A stretch of DNA of 32,615 nt from Longimicrobium sp. (lineage in GTDB: Bacteria; Gemmatimonadota; Gemmatimonadetes; Longimicrobiales; Longimicrobiaceae). Every line of letters starts with the position of its first letter. Position 1 is the stretch's first letter. Shown one piece after another: positions 5,419-32,116 of the stretch. The DNA is taken from NCBI GenBank assembly GCA_036389795.1, contig DASVWD010000267.1, positions 1 to 32,615 on the forward strand. The letters are read 5' to 3'. Position numbers and translations under genes: made by a program. The notes below the pieces were generated by a model, which saw only the letters and a list, made by a program, of their open reading frames with translations, did not search any database and had not been told where the DNA came from.

Positions 5419-5482
5419 CCGGCGGAGAACCCGGTCACCGCGCCGAGGCCCGCCCGACGCGCGGATCCCGGCGAGGGAGTCC

Positions 5483-5530
5483 GCGAAGGCGGACTTCGTG
5501 TGGTTGTTGCCGCGGTTTCAACCGCCCAGC
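5483..5530 (+). repeat. Dispersed palindromic repeat with GCGGTT/AACCGC core
   Basis: The sequence GGCGGACTTCGTGTGGTTGTTGC is followed by the core GCGGTTTCAACCGC (GCGGTT paired with AACCGC). A near-identical copy is at about 17147-17194. Related copies with the core GCGGAT/ATCCGC are at about 14388-14430 and 17013-17034. The core change is compensated on both arms. Confidence 0.65.
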
Positions 5531-11960: not shown

Positions 11961-13379
11961 ATGCAGCGACGCACCAAGATCGTCTGTACGCTGGGCCCCG
12001 CGTCCTGGTCGCCCGAGCGCATCCACTCGCTCATCGAGGCGGGGATGGACGTGGCCCGCATCAACTTCTCGCACGGCGACCTGGACCGCCACGCCGAGAC
12101 CATCCGGAACGTCCGCGCGGCCGCCGAGCGGGCGCGCCGCCCGATCGCCATCCTGGGCGACCTGCAGGGGCCCAAGATCCGCGTGGGCGTGCTCCCCGAG
12201 CCGGTGGAGCTCCGGCCCGGCGACGCCGTCACCTTCGCCCCCGAGGGCGAGCACGCGGCCGGGGAGCTCCCCACCACCTTCGCCGAGCTGGCCGAAGACG
12301 TGGAGGTGGGCGACGTGGTGCTCCTGGCCGACGGGCTGATGGAGCTGATCGTCACCGACGTGCAGCCGCCGCGGGTGACCATGCGGGTGATCCACGGCGG
12401 CGAGCTCACCTCCAGCAAGGGGATCAACCTCCCGGGCACGCGCATCAGCATCCCCTCGCTCACGCCCAAGGACCTGCGCGACCTGGAGTTCGCGCTGGAG
12501 CACGAGCTGGACTACGTGGCGCTCTCGTTCGTGCGCTCGGCCGAGGACGTGCGCGACCTGGCGCGGCGCATCCCCGAGGGCGGCCCGCTGGTGGTGGTGA
12601 AGGTGGAGAAGGGGATGGCGCTGGAGAACCTCCCCGCCATCCTGCAGGCCTCGGCCGCGGCGATGGTGGCGCGCGGCGACCTGGGGGTGGAGCTCCCCTT
12701 CGAGCGCGTGCCGCTGGCGCAGAAGCGGATGATCCAGCTGGCCAACCTCTCCAGCCGCCCGGTGATCACCGCCACGCAGATGCTGGAGTCGATGATCGAG
12801 AACCCGCGCCCCACGCGCGCGGAGGCCTCCGACGTGGCCAACGCCATCATCGACGGCACCGACGCGGTGATGCTCTCGGCCGAGACGGCCACGGGGAAGT
12901 TCCCGATCCAGGCGGTGCAGTCGATGGTGCGCATCGCCCAGGAGATCGAGGACTCGCACATCCTGGAGGGGGGCCCGCACTACGACTTCCCGATCGAGGC
13001 GGGCCCCGACGGCCACGTCCCCACGGCGCGCGCCATCGCCGGGGCCACGGTGGAGGCGGTGCGGCGGCTCTCCGCCCCGCTCATCATCACCATGACCAGC
13101 AGCGGGAGCACGGCGCGGGTGGTGTCCTCCTTCCGCCCGCCGGTGCCGGTGCTGGCGCTCACCGACCAGGTGCGCACCTACAACCAGCTGGCGCTGGTGT
13201 GGGGGGTGGTCCCGATCCTCTGCTCGCGCGAGTCCACCTTCGAGGAGCAGCTGGCGTGCGGCCGCGAGGAGGCGCTGCGCCGCGGCCTGGCCCGGCGCGG
13301 CGACCGCGTGGTGGTGACCGCCGGCAGCCCCATGCACGTGGCGGGGACGACGAATCTCCTGCAGGTGGAACAGCTTTGA
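11961..13379 (+). CDS. pyk: Pyruvate kinase
   Basis: The 472-residue protein catalyses the last step of glycolysis, phosphoenolpyruvate plus ADP to pyruvate plus ATP. It starts MQRRTKIVCTLGPAS and has ARINFSHG, GDLQGPKIRVG, VKVEKG with the catalytic lysine, ARGDLGVE, TQMLESM and DGTDAVMLSAETATGKFP. The C-terminal allosteric-type domain includes TSSGSTARVVSSFRP and GDRVVVTAG. The length matches bacterial type II enzymes without the extra PEP-utiliser domain. GGGAG precedes the ATG at good spacing. The stop codon is followed directly by an octamer repeat hairpin. Confidence 0.96.
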   Translation: MQRRTKIVCTLGPASWSPERIHSLIEAGMDVARINFSHGDLDRHAETIRNVRAAAERARRPIAILGDLQGPKIRVGVLPEPVELRPGDAVTFAPEGEHAAGELPTTFAELAEDVEVGDVVLLADGLMELIVTDVQPPRVTMRVIHGGELTSSKGINLPGTRISIPSLTPKDLRDLEFALEHELDYVALSFVRSAEDVRDLARRIPEGGPLVVVKVEKGMALENLPAILQASAAAMVARGDLGVELPFERVPLAQKRMIQLANLSSRPVITATQMLESMIENPRPTRAEASDVANAIIDGTDAVMLSAETATGKFPIQAVQSMVRIAQEIEDSHILEGGPHYDFPIEAGPDGHVPTARAIAGATVEAVRRLSAPLIITMTSSGSTARVVSSFRPPVPVLALTDQVRTYNQLALVWGVVPILCSRESTFEEQLACGREEALRRGLARRGDRVVVTAGSPMHVAGTTNLLQVEQL

Positions 13380-13380
13380 A

Positions 13381-13469
13381 GTGCGAGAGTGCGAGAGTGC
13401 GAAAGTGCGAAAGTGCGCCTCTCGGCGGTTGCCGTTACTTTCGCACTTTCGCACTCGGCACTTTCGCAC
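13381..13469 (+). repeat. Octamer tandem repeat with inverted arm
   Basis: Just after the pyk stop, GTGCGAGA (twice) and GTGCGAAA (twice) plus GTGCG run from 13381 to 13417. The opposite arm (13438-13469) contains CTTTCGCACTTTCGCACT and CACTTTCGCAC, so the whole can form a long hairpin. The arm ends one base before the ATG of the next gene, leaving no room for an ordinary ribosome binding site there. Confidence 0.8.
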
Positions 13470-13470
13470 C

Positions 13471-14247
13471 ATGAGGCTCCGCTTCCTGGGCACCGGCACC
13501 TCGTTCGGCGTGCCCGTCATCGGGTGCCGGTGCGCGGTCTGCGCCTCCGGCGACCCGCGCGACCGGAGGACGCGCCACGCGGCGCTCCTCCAGGAGGAGG
13601 GCCGCACGCTGCTGGTGGACACGCCGCCGGAGCTCAGGCTGCAGCTGATCGCCGCGGGGGTGCGCGGGGTGGACGCGGTGTGGTACACGCACACGCACGC
13701 CGACCACGTGCACGGGGTGGACGACCTGCGCGTGTTCTCCAGGCAGGGCGGGCAGGCGCTGCCCGTCTACGCCCACGAGCGGGACAGGAAGACGCTGGTC
13801 TCGCGCTTCGCCTACGTCTTCGACCCCACCGTCCCCCCGCTGAAAGGGACGTCGAAGCCCGAGGCCGAGCTGCACGACTTCCGCTCGTACGAGCCGGTGC
13901 GGGCGGCGGGGTTCGAGCTCCTTCCCCTCCCCGTCCCCCACGGCGACGCGCAGGTGCACGGCTTCCGCGTGGGCGGGCTGGGCTACATCACCGACGCCAA
14001 GCGGCTGCCCCCGCGCACCGAGGAGGCGCTCCGGGGGGTGCGCGTGCTGGTGCTGAACGCCCTCTGGTGGGGCGAGCCGCACCCCAACCACTTCAGCGTG
14101 GAGGAGGCGTGCGAGACAGCCGGGCGCCTGGGCGCCGAGCGCACCTACCTCACCCACCTGAGCCACCGCACCAGCCAGGCCGAGCTGGACCGCCGGTTGC
14201 CCGCCGGGGTGCGGGCGGCGTACGATGGGCTGGAGGTGGAGGTTTGA
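13471..14247 (+). CDS. Metallo-beta-lactamase-fold phosphodiesterase, PhnP-like
   Basis: The 258-residue protein has the metal motif H74-T-H76-A-D78-H79 in YTHTHADHVHGVDDLR, closely matching the PhnP/YycJ-related phosphodiesterase group. Cysteines C19, C21 and C24 (GCRCAVC) match the structural zinc site of PhnP. Later metal positions are in VPHGD and TYLTHLSH. PhnP hydrolyses cyclic ribose phosphates in phosphonate breakdown, but no phn genes are nearby. A more general nucleotide phosphodiesterase role is possible. The start codon abuts the octamer hairpin. Confidence 0.85.
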   Translation: MRLRFLGTGTSFGVPVIGCRCAVCASGDPRDRRTRHAALLQEEGRTLLVDTPPELRLQLIAAGVRGVDAVWYTHTHADHVHGVDDLRVFSRQGGQALPVYAHERDRKTLVSRFAYVFDPTVPPLKGTSKPEAELHDFRSYEPVRAAGFELLPLPVPHGDAQVHGFRVGGLGYITDAKRLPPRTEEALRGVRVLVLNALWWGEPHPNHFSVEEACETAGRLGAERTYLTHLSHRTSQAELDRRLPAGVRAAYDGLEVEV

Positions 14248-14250
14248 GAA

Positions 14251-14531
14251 GTGCGTGAGTGCGAAAGTGCGAAAGTGCGAAAGTGTTCAGGGCGAGATCG
14301 GTCGTAGGGGCGAGGCCTGCCTCGCCCGTGGCTGCCCCGCGGCGGTACTCGAATCGACGCACGGCAGGCGGCGTGCAGCCTCCGCAGGGAGGCTTCCTGT
14401 GGTTGTAGCCGCGGATTCATCCGCTCTACGATGGGACCGCCGCCCGAGCCAGGAGCCGTGTCGAGCACGAAGTACTCAGCACCTGGCGCTCAGGACTCAG
14501 GACCAACGCACCAAGGACTGCAGGTAAGGAT
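14251..14531 (+). repeat. Octamer array and mixed repeats between the PhnP-like gene and pgi
   Basis: The array 14251-14285 (GTGCGTGA, GTGCGAAA units) starts three bases after the stop of the upstream gene. It is followed by a GGGGCGAGGC/GCCTCGCCC palindrome (about 14307-14331), the GCGGATTCATCCGC core (about 14411-14424) with its TGTGGTTGTAGCC flank, and a run of CTCAGCAC/CTCAGGACT-like units (about 14470-14515). No gene was seen. Confidence 0.65.
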
Positions 14532-16891: not shown

Positions 16892-17801
16892 CGCGCTCCC
16901 CGGCCGCGTCTCCCCTCCCGGCCGCGTCTTCCCTCCGTCGGCCGCGTTCCTCCCCCGTCGTCCTGAGACCCGTCACAGGTACGGGATCGTCGGTTCGAGG
17001 CGGCCCCGCGCCGGGCGGATGAATCCGCGGCAACAACGGCGAGAAGCCTGCCTTCGCAGGCTGGTTCGGCGCGGAGGCCGCGTTCGGCGCGGGCAGGCCG
17101 GCTTTCAGGCGCGAAGCGCGCGGGCGCAGCCCGCTGGTCCGCGCAGGCGGACTTCGTGTGGTTGTTGCAGCGGTTTCAACCGCCCGAGACCGGGTGCGGC
17201 CCGCTTCCGGGTTCGATTGCCGGTTCGGCCTGGTCGGACCCCCGGAATGTCGGCATGTGCCCATTGATGCCGGGGAGAAGCTTTGCTGGCGTTAACGCGA
17301 CTTTTAACGTCATGTAAATTCCTGCTTGACGTCCAAAAACATTCTCTCCCAACATCTTCCGCGTTCCCGACCCAATATTCTGAAATGGAGCCGCGAACGG
17401 CGTAAAACACGCGCGATCCAGCAGAGTAAACGTCCGTACACGTCGTTGCCTTGTACCGCGCAAGTGCTTGAGCCGCGCACCCTTTTACGGAGTTCACAAA
17501 GTGGTGCGGCGTCGGCAGATGCGGGGCACTGGCGCGAATGCGCCTTTTGCTCTACTTTCTACTGTCAGGAATCACTCCACACTTTCGACCGGTACGGTGT
17601 ACCGGGCCGAGGGCACGGCCGCCGGGGGCGGGGCGCCGATGGCCGGACGCCGGGGGTCCTGATGAGTTCCTAAGGCGCCACTGGGCATACCAGCGGTGCC
17701 GTGCCCGCGTCGCTCCCCACCCGGGGCGGCGGGCGTTCGTCGTCTCTTCCTGCAACCGGGCGCCGCTCGCGCCCGGCAAGCGGTCCCCAGGAGGTGAAGC
17801 C
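16892..17801. other. Long gene-poor region, part GC-repeat and part AT-rich
   Basis: Three imperfect direct repeats beginning GGCCGCGT lie at 16902, 16920 and 16940. Repeats with GCGGAT/ATCCGC and GCGGTT/AACCGC cores occupy about 17011-17194. From about 17270 to 17560 the base composition changes to visibly more A and T, with TTAACG twice (GTTAACG, TTTTAACG) and ACGTCATGTAAAT. Open frames here (for example 17326-17673) have no protein-like features or ribosome binding sites, so I call none. The propeller gene's promoter should be in this stretch; I could not assign it. Confidence 0.55.
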
Positions 17802-21349: not shown

Positions 21350-21661
21350 CAGGCGCGTCCCCACGTTCCCCGGTGACGGGGGGTGGGGAAAGTACGAGGT
21401 ACGAGGTACGGAACTGCGGGATTCGGCGTGACTGACGGGTGCCGGTGCGAGGCGGGGGGCCCTCACCCGGCGCCGCTACCGCGTCGCCACCCTCTCCCAA
21501 CTTCGGGAGAGGGTACTCGACGGAGCTGGGTGCGGGAGACGGGGGTGATTCGTAGGGGCGAGGCATGCCTCGCCCGGCGGATGACGGCCCGTGCGCGGGA
21601 GGCGGGGAATCCGGCGCTGGCTGTTCCCTGTACCCTGTTCCCTGTCCCCTGCAGTTGCGTG
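21350..21661. repeat. Mixed short repeats between gspE and gspG
   Basis: Heptamer array GTACGAG (21392-21412), the hairpin CCCTCTCCC/GGGAGAGGG (about 21490-21511), and the GGGGCGAGGC/GCCTCGCCC palindrome (about 21554-21578) lie here. No gene was seen. These separate gspE from the element copy 2. Confidence 0.6.
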
Positions 21662-21797
21662 AGGGATGCGCGCCCGAAGGGCCGGGACCGGGCGTGCCGG
21701 GGGTTTGGCACGACCGGGCCCGGCGCCGTTGGGCACGGTCGTATCGTGCCCTACGGCGCGCGCAGCCCGGCCCGGAGCGCAGCGGAGGGACACGCCC
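21662..21797 (+). repeat. Three-branch structured repeat element, copy 2
   Basis: The outer stem is GGGCCGGG (21679-21686) with CCCGGCCC (21766-21773). Hairpin 1 pairs CGTGCC (21693-21698) with GGCACG (21707-21712) around GGGGGTTT. Hairpin 2 has the same constant CGCCGT/ACGGCG arms and a variable stem GGGCACG (21731-21737) with CGTGCCC (21745-21751) around GTCGTAT. It lies in the T2SS operon, about 115 bases before gspG, and in the same orientation as the other copies. Confidence 0.85.
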
Positions 21798-21806
21798 AAA
21801 CCCGTA

Positions 21807-21850
21807 GTGCGAAGTGCGAAGTGCGAAGTGCAAAGTGCGGAGTGCGAAAG
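21807..21850 (+). repeat. Heptamer array before gspG
   Basis: GTGCGAA occurs three times, followed by GTGCAAA, GTGCGGA and GTGCGAAA. Unlike the other arrays it follows element copy 2 instead of a stop codon. Confidence 0.8.
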
Positions 21851-21913: not shown

Positions 21914-22357
21914 ATGCGGAACATGAAGCGGGTCCGGGGGACGGCGGGGTTCACCCTGGTGGAGATCCTGGTGGTGATCATCGTGATCGCCGTGCTGGCC
22001 ACGCTGGTGGCGCCCAACGTCTTCCAGCACGTGGGACGCGCCAAGGACTCCACCGCGCGCGCCCAGCTCGAGATGCTCTCGGCGGCGATCGACGCGTACC
22101 GGCTGGACAACGACCAGTACCCCACCACCGAGCAGGGGCTGGCGGCGCTGCGCACGAAGCCGAATGTCGACCCGCTCCCGCGCGACTGGCGCGGGCCGTA
22201 CCTCAAGCGCGACGTGCCGCTGGACCCGTGGGGCCGCCCCTACCTCTACCGCGCGCCGGGTACGGCCAACCCCGACGGCTACGACCTGCTGACGCTGGGG
22301 CGCGACGGCCGCGAGGGCGGCCAGGGCGAGGACGCCGACATCCTGGGCTGGAAGTAG
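21914..22357 (+). CDS. gspG: Major T2SS pseudopilin GspG
   Basis: The 147-residue protein has a class III prepilin leader, MRNMKRVRGTAG, cleaved before F13. The hydrophobic helix follows (FTLVEILVVIIVIAVLATLVAPNV) with the conserved Glu at mature position 5. The pattern WRGPYLKRDVPLDPWGRPY and the ending TLGRDGREGG is typical of GspG and its calcium-binding loop. It forms the body of the pseudopilus. ATG 21914 is chosen with GGAG nine bases upstream; ATG 21923 is possible. It precedes gspF by only a few bases. Confidence 0.94.
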   Translation: MRNMKRVRGTAGFTLVEILVVIIVIAVLATLVAPNVFQHVGRAKDSTARAQLEMLSAAIDAYRLDNDQYPTTEQGLAALRTKPNVDPLPRDWRGPYLKRDVPLDPWGRPYLYRAPGTANPDGYDLLTLGRDGREGGQGEDADILGWK

Positions 22358-22362
22358 GCCCC

Positions 22363-23571
22363 GTGCCCGCCTTCGCCTACCGCGCCGCCACGGCGGCGGG
22401 CCGCACCGTCCGCGGGGTCGAGGAGGCCGAGAGCCCGGCCGCGCTGGAGCGCGTGCTGGGCCAGCGCGGCCTCTACCCGCTGGAGGTGGCGCCCGCCACG
22501 GCGCGCTCGGCGGGCGAGGAGCGGCGCACCGGCTTCCGCTCGCGCCGCGCCGACGTGGTGGAGGCGATCCGCTACCTGGCCACGCTGATGGACGCGGGGT
22601 TCCCGCTGGACCGCGCCCTCACGGCGGTCTCGCGCGTGGTCGCCCGGCGCGACGTGGCGGCAGCGGTGCTGGACGTGCGCGACCGGGTGCGCGGCGGGAC
22701 GCGGCTGGACGACGCGCTCTCCGCGCACCCGCGCGTCTTCCCCCGCTTCGCGGTGGGGATGGTGCGGGCCGGCGAGCGCGGCGGGCACCTGGCCGACGCG
22801 CTGGAGCGGCTCTCGGTGCAGATGGAGCGCGAGCAGGCGCTGCGCGCCCGGCTGATCTCGGCGCTCATCTACCCGGCGGTGATGGTGGCGGTGGGCGCGG
22901 GGGCGCTGGTGGTGCTCTTCGTGTTCGTGCTCCCGCGCTTCGTCACCCTGCTGCAGGACACCGGCTCGGCGCTGCCGCGCTCGACGGCGCTGCTGCTGGC
23001 CACCGGCCAGTTCGTCTCCGAGTGGTGGTGGGCGCTCCTCCTGGCGCCCGTCGTCCTGGCGATGCTGGTCTCCGCCGCGCGCGCCACCGACGAGGGGCGG
23101 GCGTCGGTCGACCGGGTGCTGCTCAGGCTCCCGATCGTGGGGCCGATGCGGGGCCGGCTGGCGTCGGCGCGGCTGGCCAGGACGCTCTCGACGCTGCTGG
23201 CGAGCGGGCTGCCGATCCTCCCGGCGCTGGAGATCGCGGCCGAGTCGCAGGCCGACGCGGCGGTCGCCGAGGAGGTGCTGCGGGCGCGCGAGGAGGTGCG
23301 CGCGGGCGACCGGCTGGCGGCGTCGCTCAGGCGCGCGGGGAGCTTCCCCTTCCTGTTCGTGCAGATGGTGGAGGTGGGCGAGGAGGGCGGCCGGCTGGCG
23401 GAGATGCTGGAGCGGGCCGCCAGCGCCATGGAGGGCGAGCTGGAGCGCGGGCTGGACCGGCTGATGAGGCTGGTGGAGCCGGCGATGATCGTGGTGTTCG
23501 GCGGGCTGATCGGCTTCGTGGCGCTCTCGCTGCTGCAGGCGATCTACGGCATCCAGCCGGACCGGTTTTAG
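22363..23571 (+). CDS. gspF: T2SS inner-membrane platform protein GspF
   Basis: The 402-residue protein has two similar GspF domains. The cytoplasmic parts contain IRYLATLMDAGFPLDRAL and LARTLSTLLASGLPILPALE. Membrane segments are near 168-192 (IYPAVMVAVGAGALVVLFVFV), in WWWALLLAPVVLAML, and near the C-terminus (MIVVFGGLIGFVALSLLQAI). The GTG start at 22363 is five bases after the gspG stop; no ATG fits better. GspF links the ATPase to the pseudopilus. The stop TAG forms the start of the repeat that follows. Confidence 0.92.
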   Translation: MPAFAYRAATAAGRTVRGVEEAESPAALERVLGQRGLYPLEVAPATARSAGEERRTGFRSRRADVVEAIRYLATLMDAGFPLDRALTAVSRVVARRDVAAAVLDVRDRVRGGTRLDDALSAHPRVFPRFAVGMVRAGERGGHLADALERLSVQMEREQALRARLISALIYPAVMVAVGAGALVVLFVFVLPRFVTLLQDTGSALPRSTALLLATGQFVSEWWWALLLAPVVLAMLVSAARATDEGRASVDRVLLRLPIVGPMRGRLASARLARTLSTLLASGLPILPALEIAAESQADAAVAEEVLRAREEVRAGDRLAASLRRAGSFPFLFVQMVEVGEEGGRLAEMLERAASAMEGELERGLDRLMRLVEPAMIVVFGGLIGFVALSLLQAIYGIQPDRF

Positions 23572-23658
23572 TCCTTAGTGCTTAGTCCTTAGTGCGTTAG
23601 TACCGGGTCGCCGCGCAGTTCAGGACTAAGGACTTAAGGACTAAAACACCAAGGACTT
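23570..23658 (+). repeat. CCTTAGT-type repeat with inverted arm between gspF and gspL
   Basis: AGTCCTTAGTGCTTAGTCCTTAGTGC begins inside the gspF stop codon. After a 20-base spacer the inverse arm (CAGGACTAAGGACTTAAGGACT) follows. The array ends near a TTG start candidate for gspL. Units are built on CTTAGT(G/C) instead of GTGCGAAA, but placement and hairpin form are the same. Confidence 0.75.
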
Positions 23659-23698: not shown

Positions 23699-25216
23699 AT
23701 GCTGCACGCGCTGCAGGGCTCGCGAGACGGGCCGGTCCGGGCCGGGTCTTCCGCCGCGGCGATCGACGCCGCGGGGGTGGACGAGCCGCGCGCGCCCCGC
23801 CGCCTGGTGGGCACCCGCCGGGCGCGGCTGGCGCTGGCCGTGGCGCCCGACCACCTGACGGTGGTGCGGCTGGCCCGCGGCTTCCTGGCGCCGCGCCCGG
23901 TGGAGGTGCTGCAGTGCACGCTGCCGCCGCCGGGGAAGAACGCCTGGCCGGAGCTGGAGGAGGCGCTGCGCGAGCTGGCGGCCACGCTGCGCGTCTCGGG
24001 CGGCTCGGTGGACGTGGCGCTGCTGCGCCGGCTGGGGCACGCCAAGGTGGTGCCCCTGCCGCCGGTGCGCCGCGCGGAGCTCTCGGCCCTGGTGCGCCGC
24101 AACGCCCGCCGCCACTTCGCGGTGCGCGACGAGGTGCTGGTGGCCGACGCGGTGCGCGTCCCCGGCCCCCGCTCGGGGACGATGGCGCCCACGCTGGCCG
24201 CCTGCGCCCCGGCGGGGCTGGTCGAGGCCGTCACCGCGGCGTGCGCGGCGGCCGGCTTCCGCGTGGGCCGCATCGTCCCCGCGGCGGTGGGGCTGGCCGA
24301 GGGCGCGCGCGCGCTGGCCCCGGCGGTGAAGAAGGGCCGCGTGGCCGTCCTGGCCGCGACGGCGGACGGGCTCGACCTGGTGCTGCTGGAGGACGGCTCC
24401 GCGCGCCTGGTGCAGCCGATCGCCCCGGGGGCGGACGCCGCCTCCACGGCGGAGCGGGCGACGCAGGCGATGAAGGCCACGGAGGCAGAGGGCGCCGCCC
24501 TCGCGGGGGTCCTGGTCGCCGGCTCGGGGCCGGGGGCCGAGGCGCTCCGGACGGCGCTCACGCTGGGCGAGGACTACGGCGGGCGGCTGCTGCGCTCGCG
24601 CGAGGCGGAGCGCGTCCCGGCCGAGGCCGTGGTCGCCCTCGGCGCGGCGCGCGCGAGCGGGCGCGCCCCCGTGCTCCTCCCCGACGCGCTGGTGCGCGAC
24701 CGGGCGCGGCGCGCGCGCCGACGGACGATCGGGCTCGCAGCGGCGGCGGCGGTGCTGCTCTTCGCGGCGGCGTGGCTGCACCTGTGGGGCGTGAAGCGCG
24801 AGCTGGAGGCGGTGCAGGCCAGGCGGCGCGAGATCGCCCCGGCGGTCCGGCGGGCGCTGGAGGCGCGCGCCGACGTGGAGGGCGTGCGCTCGCGGCTGAC
24901 GACGATCGCGAAGCTGGAGGGCGCCTCGCGGGGGTGGACGCGCGAGATCGCGGCGCTGGCCCGCGCGCTCCCCGACTCGTCGTACCTGCGCACGCTGGCG
25001 GCGGACTCCACGGGCTTCCGGCTGGCGGGGATCGCCCGCTCGGCGTCGGCGGTGGTCCCCGCGCTGGAGGCGTCGCCGGTGTTCGAGCGCGTCTCGCTCG
25101 CCTCGCCGGTGCGCTGGGAGCAGGGCGACGCGGGCGAGCGCTTCGACGTGGCCGCCGCGCTGCAGTCGGCCCGGGCGGGGCGCTCCGCGCGGCCCGCGGG
25201 CGGGAGGCGGCCGTGA
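23699..25216 (+). CDS. gspL: T2SS GspL-like protein (PilM/PilN-like halves)
   Basis: The 505-residue protein starts at ATG 23699 (GAGG upstream); a TTG at 23657 would extend it. An actin-like cytoplasmic part (about 40-330) begins RLALAVAPDHLTVVRLARG. A single membrane helix lies near 343-363 (GLAAAAAVLLFAAAWLHLWG). The periplasmic part has a coiled-coil-like stretch (KRELEAVQARRREIAPAVRR) and a ferredoxin-like ending (RTLAADSTGFRLAGIA). This matches GspL, which recruits GspE. It overlaps gspM by GTGA at 25213-25216. Confidence 0.8.
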   Translation: MLHALQGSRDGPVRAGSSAAAIDAAGVDEPRAPRRLVGTRRARLALAVAPDHLTVVRLARGFLAPRPVEVLQCTLPPPGKNAWPELEEALRELAATLRVSGGSVDVALLRRLGHAKVVPLPPVRRAELSALVRRNARRHFAVRDEVLVADAVRVPGPRSGTMAPTLAACAPAGLVEAVTAACAAAGFRVGRIVPAAVGLAEGARALAPAVKKGRVAVLAATADGLDLVLLEDGSARLVQPIAPGADAASTAERATQAMKATEAEGAALAGVLVAGSGPGAEALRTALTLGEDYGGRLLRSREAERVPAEAVVALGAARASGRAPVLLPDALVRDRARRARRRTIGLAAAAAVLLFAAAWLHLWGVKRELEAVQARRREIAPAVRRALEARADVEGVRSRLTTIAKLEGASRGWTREIAALARALPDSSYLRTLAADSTGFRLAGIARSASAVVPALEASPVFERVSLASPVRWEQGDAGERFDVAAALQSARAGRSARPAGGRRP

Positions 25217-25920
25217 AGCGCCCCAACCTGTCGCCGCGCGACCGGCGCGCGCTGCTGCTGGGCGGCGCGCTCCTCGTCCCCGCCCTCTTCTTCGTGCTGG
25301 TGGTCTCGCCGTACCTGGACGCGCTCGGCACGGCGCGGGAGCGGCTGGAGCAGGACCGCGCCGTGCTGCGCCGCGAGCTGGCGCTGCTGTCCGAGGCGGC
25401 CGACTACCCGCGCGTCTTCGACGAGGGAGCCGAGCGGCTGCTCACGGCGGCCCCGCGGCTGATGGGCGGCGACGACGACGCGGCCGCGGCCGCCGCGGTG
25501 GCGGGGTACGTCCGCCGCCTGGGGCGGATGGCGCCCGCCAACGTGACCCGGGTGGAGCCCGCGCCCAGCCGCGACGCGGGGGGCGGGGTGACCGCGCTCC
25601 CGGTGGCGGTCAGCGGCGAGGCCGACCTGGAGGGGCTCCTGACGCTCCTGCACATGCTGGAGACGGGCCCCAAGCTGGTGGACGTGAGCGAGCTGCGCAT
25701 CGAGTCCTCCGCCGTCCCCGCGGCGGGCGAGGCCGGGGGCCCGGCGTACTCGCCCACGCCGTTCTACACGCCCGGCGGAGCCGGCGTGCAGCCCGAGGTG
25801 CTCACCTTCCGCTTCACCGCCACCGGCTTCACGCTGGCGCAGCCGGCCCGGCGCGGGGCGGAGGGAGGCGAGGACCAGGACCCGGAGACGGAGACGGAGA
25901 CGGAGGAGGACGCGGGATGA
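25213..25920 (+). CDS. gspM: T2SS GspM-like protein
   Basis: The 235-residue protein starts at GTG 25213 overlapping the gspL stop. It has one N-terminal membrane helix (ALLLGGALLVPALFFVLVVSPYL), a coiled-coil-like segment (RERLEQDRAVLRRELALLSEA), and a ferredoxin-like domain (LEGLLTLLHMLETGPKLVDVSELRI), all typical of GspM/PilO proteins. The tail is acidic and low in complexity (DPETETETEED). It overlaps gspC by ATGA at 25917-25920. Position between gspL and gspC supports the call more than sequence alone. Confidence 0.78.
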   Translation: MKRPNLSPRDRRALLLGGALLVPALFFVLVVSPYLDALGTARERLEQDRAVLRRELALLSEAADYPRVFDEGAERLLTAAPRLMGGDDDAAAAAAVAGYVRRLGRMAPANVTRVEPAPSRDAGGGVTALPVAVSGEADLEGLLTLLHMLETGPKLVDVSELRIESSAVPAAGEAGGPAYSPTPFYTPGGAGVQPEVLTFRFTATGFTLAQPARRGAEGGEDQDPETETETEEDAG

Positions 25921-26441
25921 GCATCGCCGCGGGGTGGACCCCCGCCAACCGCATCGCCCTGGGGGCGCTGGCCGGCGCCGCCCTCCTGCTGGTCTCGGCG
26001 TACGCCGGGGCGCGGCGGGTGGAGCCGCTCCCGCCGCGCCCCGCCGCCCGCCGCGCCGCGCCGATGCCCGAGGTGCGCCCGCGCGCGGCCGCCGGCTCCG
26101 ACGCGGCGATCCTGGCGGCGGTGGCGAAGGACCCCTTCCGCCCCGAGCGCAGCCGCCCCGCCGGGCGCTACCGGATGCCGGGCGAGGCGGTGCCTCCCCC
26201 GATGGCGGCCGCCCCCGTGGCCCCGCCGGCGCCGGTGTGGAACCTCCGCCTGCTGGGCACGGTGGCGCTCCCCAGCGGCGGCATCGCGGCCATCGCCGGG
26301 CAGACCGGCGAGAGCCGCGTGGTGCGGGTGGGGCAGGAGATCGACGGATTCAAGCTCGTCCGGGTGACGCCGGGGAAGGCGCGGCTGGAGGGCAACGACA
26401 CCACGCTGACCCTGGAAATGCAGCCGGGAGGAACCCCGTGA
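25917..26441 (+). CDS. gspC: T2SS GspC-like protein
   Basis: The 174-residue protein has a membrane helix near 15-32 (RIALGALAGAALLLVSAY), a Pro/Arg/Ala-rich linker, and a C-terminal HR-type domain (LRLLGTVALPSGGIAAIAG, VRVGQEIDGFKLVRVTPGKARLE). It lacks the PDZ domain of longer GspC proteins, so it is the short form. GspC links the inner-membrane platform to the secretin. The start ATG overlaps gspM, and its end overlaps gspD (GTGA at 26438-26441). Confidence 0.8.
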   Translation: MSIAAGWTPANRIALGALAGAALLLVSAYAGARRVEPLPPRPAARRAAPMPEVRPRAAAGSDAAILAAVAKDPFRPERSRPAGRYRMPGEAVPPPMAAAPVAPPAPVWNLRLLGTVALPSGGIAAIAGQTGESRVVRVGQEIDGFKLVRVTPGKARLEGNDTTLTLEMQPGGTP

Positions 26442-28231
26442 CGCGCACCCTGTCCCTGCTCGCCGCCCTGCTCCTCGCCTCGGCCGCGCCGCTCGCCGCG
26501 CAGCAGGGGGTGACGCGCACCGACGGCGGGATCATGATCGACTTCCAGGGGACGGACCTGCGCCTGGCGGTCCCCGCGCTGGCCGAGGCCGCGGGGCTCA
26601 ACATCGTCTACGGCGAGCTCCCCCAGCGCCCGGTGGTGCTGCGCACGCCGAACCCGATCTCGCCGGCGCAGGTGCGCCAGTACCTGGAGAGCATCCTCAA
26701 GGCCAACAACCTGGAGCTGGTCGACGAGGGCGGCGGGATCATGCGCGTCCGCGGCACCGGCGACCCGGCGGGAGGCGTGGTCCCCGGGGCCCAGCCGCAG
26801 GCCGCGCCGCAGCAGGGCGGGCCGCTGCAGCTCTTCGTCTACAACCTGCGCCACGCGCCGGCCGAGGACATGGCCCGCAGCATCGGCGCGCTCTTCGGCC
26901 TCTCGGGCGCCGCGGGGCCCAGCGACCGGGCGCGCTCGCTCACCGAGGAGCTGCGCGGCGACGCCATCCCGCCCGGGGCGCAGCCACAGGCGCCCCGGCT
27001 GCAGGCGCAGGGGATCGCGGCGGGCTTGCGCGGCGAGGTGCAGATCTTCGCCGACCAGCGCACCAACTCGCTCCTGGTCCGCGCCAGCCCGGCCGACTAC
27101 GCCACCATCCAGCAGGCGATCCAGCAGCTGGACCGGCGCCCGCTGCAGGTGCTGATCGAGGTGCTGATCGCCGAGGTGCGCCGCAACCGGCAGTTCAACG
27201 TGGGGATCGCCTTCGACGTCCCCGACCAGGAGGTGCGCACCGGGAGCGACACCCGGGTGGGCGGCACGCTGGCCGGCGCCACCGACGGCGACGTGGTGAT
27301 CCGCATCTCCCGGCTGGGGGGCGTGGACGCGAGCCTCACGCTCTCGGCGCTGGCCTCGTCGGGGAACGTGAACATCCTCTCGCGCCCGGTGATCATGGCG
27401 CAGAACAACGAGGAGGCGCGCATCCTGGTGGGCGACCAGCGGCCCTTCATCCAGATCTCGCGCGCGCTGCCCACCGACAACGCGGCGCGCGACCAGGTGA
27501 TCCAGTACCGCGACGTGGGGACGCAGCTCACCATCCGCCCGACGATCAACCCCGACGGCTACGTGACGCTCACCGTGCTGCAGGAGGTGAGCACGGCCAC
27601 CAACCAGACGCAGTTCGGAGCGCCGATCATCAGCACGCGCGAGGCGGAGACGCGGCTGCTGGTGAAGGACGGGCAGACGATCGTGATCGGCGGGCTGATC
27701 GACCAGCAGCGCTCGGTGACCAACTCGGGGATCCCGTTCCTGAAGGACATTCCGATCCTGGGGAACCTGTTCCGCTCGACGAACCGGACGAACGACATCA
27801 CCGAGCTGTTCCTGTTCCTGACGCCGCACGTGCTGGCCACCGACGAGGACGTGAGCGAGGCCACGCGCCGGGTGCGCGAGGACGCGCCGCGGCTGGACCG
27901 GGTGCTCCCCGACTCGATCCCGCTGTACTGGGAGCTCTCCACCGACACGCTCTTCGTCCCCACCGGCCCGCAGCGCGGCCGGCCGCAGCCGCAGCGCCCG
28001 CAGCCGCAGCGTCCGCAGCCGCAGCGTCCGGCCCCTGCTCCGGCGCCCGCTCCGCCCCCGGCGCCCGCCCCGGCCCCGGCGCCGCCGCCCCCGTCGGCGG
28101 CGCCGCAGCAGCCGCAGCAGCAGGGCACGCCTCCGGCTCCGGGGACGGGCCCGACGGCGCTGCTGCCGGCGACGACGATCGGCGGGGAGCGGCGGCGGGG
28201 ACGCAGAGCCGCCGGAGGATCGCGGAGATGA
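26438..28231 (+). CDS. gspD: T2SS secretin GspD with proline-rich tail
   Basis: The 597-residue outer-membrane channel protein has a signal peptide (LLAALLLASAAPLAAQ), an N0/N1-like part (IDFQGTDLRLAVPALAEAAGLN), and the secretin domain with VLIEVLIAEVRRNRQFNVG, LTIRPTINPDGYVTL, GIPFLKDIPILGNLFR (G431 onward) and TELFLFLTPHVL. Normal secretins end soon after this. Here about 90 further residues follow (from about 508): repeated RPQPQ units and runs of AP/PA, which could span the wall or bind another component. GTG 26438 follows GGGAGGA. It overlaps gspC. Confidence 0.93.
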   Translation: MTRTLSLLAALLLASAAPLAAQQGVTRTDGGIMIDFQGTDLRLAVPALAEAAGLNIVYGELPQRPVVLRTPNPISPAQVRQYLESILKANNLELVDEGGGIMRVRGTGDPAGGVVPGAQPQAAPQQGGPLQLFVYNLRHAPAEDMARSIGALFGLSGAAGPSDRARSLTEELRGDAIPPGAQPQAPRLQAQGIAAGLRGEVQIFADQRTNSLLVRASPADYATIQQAIQQLDRRPLQVLIEVLIAEVRRNRQFNVGIAFDVPDQEVRTGSDTRVGGTLAGATDGDVVIRISRLGGVDASLTLSALASSGNVNILSRPVIMAQNNEEARILVGDQRPFIQISRALPTDNAARDQVIQYRDVGTQLTIRPTINPDGYVTLTVLQEVSTATNQTQFGAPIISTREAETRLLVKDGQTIVIGGLIDQQRSVTNSGIPFLKDIPILGNLFRSTNRTNDITELFLFLTPHVLATDEDVSEATRRVREDAPRLDRVLPDSIPLYWELSTDTLFVPTGPQRGRPQPQRPQPQRPQPQRPAPAPAPAPPPAPAPAPAPPPPSAAPQQPQQQGTPPAPGTGPTALLPATTIGGERRRGRRAAGGSRR

Positions 28232-28275: not shown

Positions 28276-28320
28276 GGAAGGCGGCCCCGCAACGGGACGC
28301 GGCGGGAGGGCACGAGCGTG

Positions 28321-28454
28321 AGGGATGCGCGCCCGGAGGGCCGGGACACGGGCGCGCCGGGGGTTTGGCGCGGCCGGGGCCCGGCGCCGTTGGGCAGCGT
28401 CGTTTGCTGCCCTACGGCGCGCGCAGCCCGGCCCCGCGCAGCGGGGACACGCCC
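28321..28454 (+). repeat. Three-branch structured repeat element, copy 3
   Basis: The outer stem is GGGCCGGG (28338-28345) with CCCGGCCC (28427-28434). Hairpin 1 pairs CGCGCC (28353-28358) with GGCGCG (28367-28372) around GGGGGTTT. Hairpin 2 has CGCCGT/ACGGCG arms and a variable stem GGGCAGC (28392-28398) with GCTGCCC (28406-28412) around GTCGTTT. The right flank is shortened compared with copies 1 and 2. It lies inside the operon between gspD and gspH. Confidence 0.85.
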
Positions 28455-28956: not shown

Positions 28957-29341
28957 CCGGGGCTTCACGCTCCTGGAGGCGCTGGTCGCCCTGGTGATCC
29001 TGGGCCTCGCGCTCGTCCCCCTGCTCTCGTCCATCCGCGCGGGGACGAACGAGCAGGGGCGGCTACAGGCGCACCTGGAAGCGGTGTCGCTGGCCGAGGA
29101 GCGCATGTCCGAGCTCACCCTCCTCTCCGTCGACTCGATCGCCGAGTACCTGCGCCCGCGCGAGGGGGTCTTCCCCGCGCCGTTCGAGCGCTACCGCTGG
29201 CGGACGCTGCTGCGCATCGAGGAGGGCTCGCCCGCGCTGGTCCAGGCCGCCGTGCTGGTGCGCTGGCCCGGGGGCGAGTACTCGCTGGAGACGGTGTTCC
29301 ACCGGGTGGAGATGCTCCCCGAGTTCGCGCCTGCCCGATGA
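28901..29341 (+). CDS. gspI: Minor T2SS pseudopilin GspI-like
   Basis: The 146-residue protein has a basic leader (MRSRSTAGPARRGRPPLDSRG) then FTLLEALVALVILGLALVPLL with Glu5. The rest (AHLEAVSLAEERMSELTL, WPGGEYSLETVF) fits the GspI tip pseudopilin. AGGTG precedes ATG 28901. It begins within gspH. Its stop at 29339-29341 shares ATGA with a possible gspJ start, and the octamer array begins six bases later. Confidence 0.85.
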   Translation: MRSRSTAGPARRGRPPLDSRGFTLLEALVALVILGLALVPLLSSIRAGTNEQGRLQAHLEAVSLAEERMSELTLLSVDSIAEYLRPREGVFPAPFERYRWRTLLRIEEGSPALVQAAVLVRWPGGEYSLETVFHRVEMLPEFAPAR

Positions 29342-29347
29342 GCGGGA

Positions 29348-29384
29348 GTGCGAAAGTGCGAAAGTGCGAGAGTGCGAAAGTGCT
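29348..29384 (+). repeat. Octamer array after the gspI stop
   Basis: GTGCGAAA, GTGCGAAA, GTGCGAGA and GTGCGAAA run in tandem from six bases after the gspI stop. If gspJ starts at 29338, the array is translated as part of its leader (SAKVRKCESAKV). Confidence 0.8.
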
Positions 29385-29406
29385 CCGGCTTCGCCGGCAT
29401 CGACCG

Positions 29407-31010: not shown

Positions 31011-32054
31011 ATGCGGGAGCCGATCCGACAGGCGACGATTCCGTTCCGGCAGCCGGCCGTGGTGCCGGCGCGGGGGCTGGCGCCCGTTCCGGTGCGCAAC
31101 GGCGACGGGGGCAGCCACATCATCGGCCAGAGCCCGCGCATGCAGGCCGCGGTGGCGGTGGCGCGCAAGGTGGCCGACAGCACCGCCACCGTGCTCGTCC
31201 ACGGCGAGAGCGGCACGGGGAAGGAGCTCCTGGCCCGCATCATCCACGAGCACAGCGCGCGCGCCCGCGGCCCCTTCGTGGCCGTCAACTGCGCCGCCAT
31301 CCCCGAGACGCTGCTCGAGTCGGAGCTCTTCGGCCACGAGAAAGGCGCCTTCACCGGCGCCTCCGCGCGCCGGGCGGGGCGCTTCGAACGGGCCAGCGGA
31401 GGCACGCTTTTCCTGGACGAAGTGGGCGACATGAGCCCGGGGATGCAGGCCAAGATCCTGCGCGTGCTCCAGGAGGAGGAGATCGAGCGCGTGGGCGGCG
31501 AGCGGCCGATCCACGTGGACGTGCGGGTCGTGGCCGCCACCAACCGCGACCTGGCCGAGGAGGTGGCGGCGGGCCGCTTCCGCGACGACCTGTACTACCG
31601 CCTGGCCGTCGTCGTGCTGGAGCTGCCCCCCTTGCGCGAGCGCGGCGACGACGTGGAGCTGCTGGCGCGGCACTACGTGGAGCACTTCGCGCGCAAGCAC
31701 GGCCGTCCCGTGCACGAGATCTCGGACGGGGCGATGAACCTGCTGCGCAGCCACAGCTGGCCGGGGAACATCCGCCAGCTGCGCAACGTGATCGAGCGGG
31801 CGCTGCTGGTGGCCGAGGGCGGCGTGCTCCTCCCCGAGAACCTGCCCCCCGAGGTGCGCCTGGGAGAGGGGTCGCCGCGCGAGCGGGGGAAGGAGGACGG
31901 CGAGTTCCTGCCGCTCAGGGAGATGGAGATCCGCCACATCCGCCGCGCGCTGGCGCTCACCGGCGGCAACCTGGGCCACACCGCCGAGATCCTGGGGATC
32001 CACCGCAACACGCTCCGGCAGAAGCTCAGGAAGCTGCACGAGGACGAGGATTAG
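31011..32054 (+). CDS. Sigma-54-dependent activator without sensor domain
   Basis: The 347-residue protein has a short N-terminal region (about 1-40), an AAA+ sigma-54 interaction domain with Walker A GESGTGKE (K71), GAFTGA (112-117), Walker [13 protein letters not shown] and arginine-finger region FRDDLYYRL, and a Fis-type C-terminal helix-turn-helix ([19 protein letters not shown]). It should activate RpoN promoters. There is no receiver, GAF or PAS domain, so its activity must be set by level or a partner. GAGGAC precedes ATG 31011. It follows gspK by 49 bases, so it may control secretion genes. Confidence 0.9.
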
Positions 32055-32116
32055 TACGGAAGTACGGAAGTACGAGAGTACGGAAGTACGAGGTACGAGG
32101 TACGGAGTACGAGGTA
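32054..32116 (+). repeat. Octamer/heptamer GTACGGAA array overlapping the stop codon
   Basis: GTACGGAA or GTACGAGA units (four octamers) then GTACGAG or GTACGGA units (four heptamers) begin with the G of the TAG stop at 32052-32054. Confidence 0.8.

Follow-up and report, generated by a model that had tools for sequence, protein, structure and literature searches.

An element of ~140 bases, folded and non-coding, lies between the genes of a soil bacterium of the genus Longimicrobium in more than 230 copies. Comparison at the level of sequence and pairing shows that these chromosomal copies and copies carried by plasmids form one homologous six-helix non-coding family. On balance, we lean to the reading that the element is a signal of conjugative plasmids that acts as single-stranded DNA (ssDNA) on the transferred strand, and that a descendant of it spread as a structured repeat on Longimicrobiaceae chromosomes.

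Copies and their setting in the Longimicrobium genome

The window, the whole stretch of 32,615 nucleotides that was analysed, contains three copies of the element, scored here with the covariance model R1:

1-139, + strand: element copy 1 (122.7 bits, model positions 7-143)
21657-21797, + strand: element copy 2, complete (138 bits; gspE-gspG gap)
28316-28454, + strand: element copy 3, complete (121.9 bits; gspD-gspH gap)

The sequence-only reading had placed these copies at 1-139, 21662-21797 and 28321-28454. The copies are real and their location stands, but the 5' end lies 5 nt further out, in a GCGTG/CACGC terminal stem, because nearly all complete copies start with GCRTG and finish with CAYGCCC. 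The full-length element reads GCRTG...CAYGCCC. Copy 1 begins where the contig begins and so lacks the initial 5 nt, which belong to the terminal stem; several further contigs of the same assembly likewise start or stop within a copy.

The core of the element, GCGCGCAGCCCGGCCC, has 231 exact matches in the 7.5-Mb genome (110 on the + strand and 121 on the − strand), and its reversed pattern has 0. The copy number is far above chance. R1 finds at least 150 copies in the host genome. The copies share ancestry, and counts of copies and of pairs are not counts of independent events. In shortened copies, the core is deleted between GCGCGC repeats, leaving about 53–60 nt. In the internal-deletion copies L010, L022, L083, L195 and L204, the join is at GCGCGC, where the fold has its base; replication slippage across a DNA hairpin would be expected to leave such junctions.

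All 68 copies mapped with full context are intergenic, while coding sequence makes up about 74% of a 419-kb sample (both by a home-made gene caller). Thirty-two of them lie in tandem gaps in sense orientation, 18 in tandem gaps in antisense orientation, 7 in convergent and 7 in divergent gaps, with 4 undetermined; sampled background gaps of 200–1200 bp comprise 90 tandem, 28 divergent and 16 convergent gaps. Adjacent chromosomal copies have the same orientation in 18 cases and the opposite in 25, with no strand bias. A replication-strand bias of insertion on the chromosome was also considered and is not seen from adjacent copies.

A type II secretion operon (gspE, gspG, gspF, gspD and gspH by Pfam) contains copies 2 and 3 and is syntenic in four relatives. 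The gspE-gspG and gspD-gspH junctions of these four relatives contain no element, so the operon copies were either gained in the host lineage or lost in all four. An operon-internal regulator had been suggested from the window; this idea is unsupported and was rejected on the mixed orientation of the copies, 18 of the 50 tandem-gap copies being antisense to both neighbours. The parallel suggestion of a mobile element agrees with the data: hundreds of intergenic copies in both orientations, absent at orthologous sites, fit a dispersed and probably mobile repeat, and in being dispersed and absent from such sites the element resembles MITEs. Empty-site comparison reveals no recognisable target duplication, the flanks being mosaics of other repeats. 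Only internal-deletion derivatives, and no autonomous parent element with an ORF, were seen.

Other repeats are present in the window:

5479-5527, 14378-14426 and 17137-17185: REP-like repeat GTCCGCGAAGGCGGACTTCGTGTGGTTGTTGCCGCGGTTTCAACCGCC
13364-13429, 14234-14299, 21800-21850, 29331-29396 and 32045-32094: AGTGCGA/AGTGCGAA arrays
21557-21640: MITE-like repeat with ends CGTAGGGGCGAG...CTCGCCCCTACG

The AGTGCGA/AGTGCGAA arrays frequently adjoin the element on its 3' side and CCCTGTT arrays on its 5' side, and the MITE-like repeat, about 110 bp long and also found at L127, L133 and L121, is often just 5' of it. Further repeat families, at least three in number (M1, M3 and M4), make mosaics of the intergenic regions. 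REP/RAYT systems (PMC3733652, PMC3116915) also consist of dispersed palindromic repeats, and the host has two Y1 transposase genes. Both Y1_Tnp genes (RAYT-like; L066 and L067) are flanked by another repeat, the REP-like GTCCGCGAAGGCGGACTTCGTGTGGTTGTTGCCGCGGTTTCAACCGCC, and on this transposase check a RAYT link was rejected. ERIC/IRU and similar small mobile repeats of enterobacteria (PMC2229807, PMC2759123) are also about 100–170 bp, intergenic, of high copy number, self-folding and non-coding. The element differs from them in being multibranched and in having strand-biased plasmid relatives. To our knowledge, their sequence is unrelated to that of the element.

The element also occurs on related Gemmatimonadota MAG contigs. 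R1 is positive in 12 of 117 genomes of the order, with copies in the genus and in some sister genera of Longimicrobiaceae, and has no match in the scanned genomes of the order's other families. Phage and viral contigs have no match to the element. The element had not been recognised as a named family at the outset, and Rfam, at gathering and relaxed thresholds, returns nothing credible. A search of open papers in PMC, also by sequence string, matched none to the element; subscription papers may mention the plasmid element.

A six-helix fold supported by covariation

A nested fold of six helices (P1, P1b, P2, P3, P4 and P5) is strongly supported by covariation among aligned copies. In copy 2, parts of the fold are assigned as follows:

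21657-21661 with 21791-21795, + strand: P1, terminal stem, GCGTG with CACGC (GC/AT covariation; A1 columns 3-142)
21663-21671 with 21760-21768, + strand: P1b, GGGaTGCGC with GCGCAgCCC (invariant on the chromosome)
21681-21724, + strand: P3, variable arm with base GCCGGG/CCCGGC (hairpin 1 of the sequence-only reading)
21725-21759, + strand: P4, arm with heptaloop GTNGTWT (hairpin 2 of the sequence-only reading)
21771-21789, + strand: P5, variable hairpin CCC...GGG (length and sequence vary, the ends pair)

The chromosomal alignment, A1, contains 51 copies (45 from the host genome and 6 from relatives). Across the 51 copies, 97.8% of the cells of the fold are paired, and both sides have changed in 21 of the 47 pairs. 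None of 500 shuffles matches the fold on any measure, and sliding the pairing register by one base leaves pairing of only 31–40%. RNAalifold, run independently, returns nearly the same structure.

The two hairpins with compensated stems are borne out in all three window copies. Both sides have changed in 12 of 16 pairs of P3 and in 8 of 12 pairs of P4, with 100% of the P4 cells paired (51 chromosomal copies). P1 is GCATG/CATGC in other chromosomal copies. The identical outer stem proposed earlier, GGGCCGGG with CCCGGCCC, was mispaired, and covariation does not support this pairing. Instead, GCCGGG pairs with the CCCGGC that immediately follows hairpin 1 on its 3' side; in relatives this pairing covaries to GCCGAG/CTCGGC (A1 columns 27-31/68-72). 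The partner of the 3' CCC is the 5' GGG of AGGGATGCGC, and the next CCC closes the third, variable hairpin.

In copies of the genomes G008 and G002 (L039, L040, L053, L054, L063 and L147-L167), P3 is about 60–75 nt long. Its tip diverges strongly between copies within one genome, and the remainder is nearly identical.

Homologous copies on conjugative plasmids

A distant plasmid search found an exact match of 36 of 36 nt to the element on a Methylomagnum plasmid, and a Burkholderia plasmid scores 57 bits with R1. Both plasmids carry complete short versions of the element. With the Burkholderia version as query, 669 plasmid records were matched, 574 of them typed conjugative. The hosts are Proteobacteria of many kinds, and R46 is among the plasmids. 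All 182 places found in 5,426 E. coli genomes are on plasmids, with 0 on a chromosome. The element is unannotated in the plasmid records examined.

A typical plasmid copy is 84–113 nt long, with P3 and P4 shrunk to mini-hairpins, and the mean GC content is 72%. In a plasmid-only alignment of 23 copies, fitted to model R1, covariation is seen in all six helices, including P1, P1b, P2 and P5, which are near-invariant on the chromosome. The P1 types on plasmids include GCGTC/GACGC, GCGTT/AACGC and GCGAG/CTCGC. P1b occurs as GGGATG/CAGCCC and GGGATT/AAGCCC; its column 12/157 is G-C in 16 copies and T-A in 7, and one plasmid, L249, holds both types. All three pairs of P5 covary. Selection on the fold, as proposed from three copies, thus has strong support from 51 chromosomal copies and a separate set of 23 plasmid copies. 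A plasmid-only model, R2, in turn finds G018 (72 bits) and G000 (47 bits), both Longimicrobiaceae, and none other among 395 Gemmatimonadota genomes under strict filters with ten candidates scored per genome.

Orientation and neighbours on plasmids were taken from 14 annotated regions. The neighbours are mostly of leading-region type (DUF932, ParB, SSB, RadC, antirestriction, methyltransferase, TrfB-related and stbABC), and plasmids carry one to five copies among such genes. In all 8 multi-copy plasmids the copies share one orientation (chance 1.2e-4); in tandem gaps, copies antisense to the flanking genes outnumber sense copies 19:3. In conjugation, the transferred strand enters the leading region from nic in the 5' to 3' direction. 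In L243, L249 and R46 (L268), the mobF-oriT-stb geometry identifies the + strand of the element as the transferred strand; the leading-region position follows from oriT geometry in these three plasmids and from gene content only in the others. R46, which was left out of every model, has three copies at 22066-22164, 23777-23880 and 26282-26385, all on the + strand (matches at 22080, 23791 and 26296). All are within 22.0–26.4 kb, in the stb-ard leading region, and there is no element elsewhere in the 50 kb scanned.

The CUP elements of IncN plasmids (R46/pKM101; PMC5371602, PMC6289460) are also repeated and intergenic and occupy the same R46 leading region. R46 has repeats at the CUP positions 23209-23654, 24550-25000, 25760-26202 and 27778-28047, and the folded element is just beyond two of them. 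The element is a separate R46 repeat family, CUP identity being assigned by position and PMC5371602, and it also occurs where a plasmid has no annotated CUP regulon.

The folded strand and its possible role

On the + strand, G.T wobbles exceed A.C wobbles in both sets (13 versus 2 in plasmid copies; 36 versus 5 in chromosomal copies, only 15 versus 5 without pair 34-65), so folding of the + strand is more likely than folding of the − strand. When the 51 chromosomal copies are folded by minimum energy, the + strand as ssDNA regains 90% or more of the covarying pairs in 45 of them; the same criterion gives 21 copies for the + strand as RNA, 14 for the − strand as RNA and 8 for the − strand as DNA. 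With the short plasmid copies, the predicted energy minimum is often a structure other than the branched fold; all four predictions are poor but rank as on the chromosome, + strand ssDNA doing best (sensitivity 0.40, versus 0.31 for + strand RNA). Action of the + strand as DNA rather than RNA is favoured by these predictions, not proven. The element had been read as a folded RNA or DNA; the fold stands, and from wobbles and minimum-energy folding RNA is less likely than ssDNA.

A structured RNA, either a small RNA or an mRNA cis-element, could have been copied around the genome, with covariation arising because the RNA must fold. Strong covariation on chromosome and plasmids, wobbles of G.U type on the + strand and the nearly identical RNAalifold structure are all consistent with it. 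Nevertheless, we consider it unlikely. Besides the 18 of 50 tandem-gap copies antisense to both neighbours, 14 more copies have convergent or divergent neighbours, most plasmid copies run antisense to their operons, the covarying fold is reproduced in fewer copies with RNA than with DNA parameters, and Rfam has no match. Far less probable still are neutral repeats whose stem complementarity is kept by template-switch (quasi-palindrome) correction instead of selection. P3 and P4, the long hairpin arms in which such correction is expected, covary most strongly, and the internal-deletion copies have slippage-like junctions; but P1 and P1b change together though closed across 75–130 nt of branched structure, and loops and junctions are conserved across phyla.

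The main rival is a selfish element that moves as ssDNA, specifically a miniature mobile repeat (REP/ERIC/MITE-like) whose folded single strand is acted on by a transposase in trans. The orientation bias on plasmids would then reflect insertion into single-stranded incoming DNA, and same-strand plasmid copies would be explained without any plasmid function. Hundreds of dispersed intergenic copies, a burst in one genome and absence from orthologous sites point the same way. We also hold this explanation to be improbable: none of the 182 E. coli places is chromosomal, plasmids show one to five leading-region copies and no burst, neither a target duplication nor an ORF-bearing parent was found, the repeat that flanks both Y1 transposase genes is a different one, and the chromosome has no strand bias.

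PMC11541004 describes leading-region genes that are templated by the transferred strand, together with Frpo ssDNA promoters. Frpo/ssi ssDNA promoters and priming sites of conjugative plasmids, as presented in PMC11541004 and PMC9849209, citing Masai and Arai 1997, resemble the element by description: they are folded on the transferred strand, are present in several copies in the leading region, and lie between genes that use this strand as template. The element differs in being very GC-rich and six-helix branched, and in being a chromosomal repeat in another phylum. Its best score for sigma70 −35/−10 hexamers is 5.6–5.7 of 12, versus 6.1 in shuffles. Because promoter hexamers are absent, the element may instead serve for priming, for protein loading, or as a promoter that another factor uses.

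In the transferred-strand reading that we prefer, the plasmid element would function as ssDNA. The transferred strand would fold in the recipient into the stem-and-branches structure and be recognised by a protein, possibly RNA polymerase, a primase/primosome or a plasmid factor. Recognition would make the structure a leading-region signal, specific to one strand, for starting or loading, like Frpo/ssi but without Frpo promoter boxes. A plasmid or ICE would have carried the element into an ancestor of Longimicrobiaceae, where it multiplied on chromosomes as a non-autonomous intergenic repeat. Since the chromosome has no strand bias, a transferred-strand role cannot act there; the fold is probably kept by selection because the folded single strand is still recognised, for spread or host use. 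More tentatively, at somewhat below an even chance, we suggest that the plasmid copies represent an unnamed, non-Frpo class of transferred-strand ssDNA signals in proteobacterial leading regions, one lineage of which became the several-hundred-copy Longimicrobiaceae repeat.

Many clinical resistance plasmids (IncN, IncP-2, Pseudomonas and Enterobacterales types) carry the element. Should its plasmid copies act as ssDNA signals, they would form a second, GC-rich class active before the incoming strand becomes double-stranded, and would give sites at which to test a stage of conjugation for which most knowledge comes from F. If true, the Longimicrobiaceae repeat would be a plasmid control element turned chromosomal repeat in another phylum.
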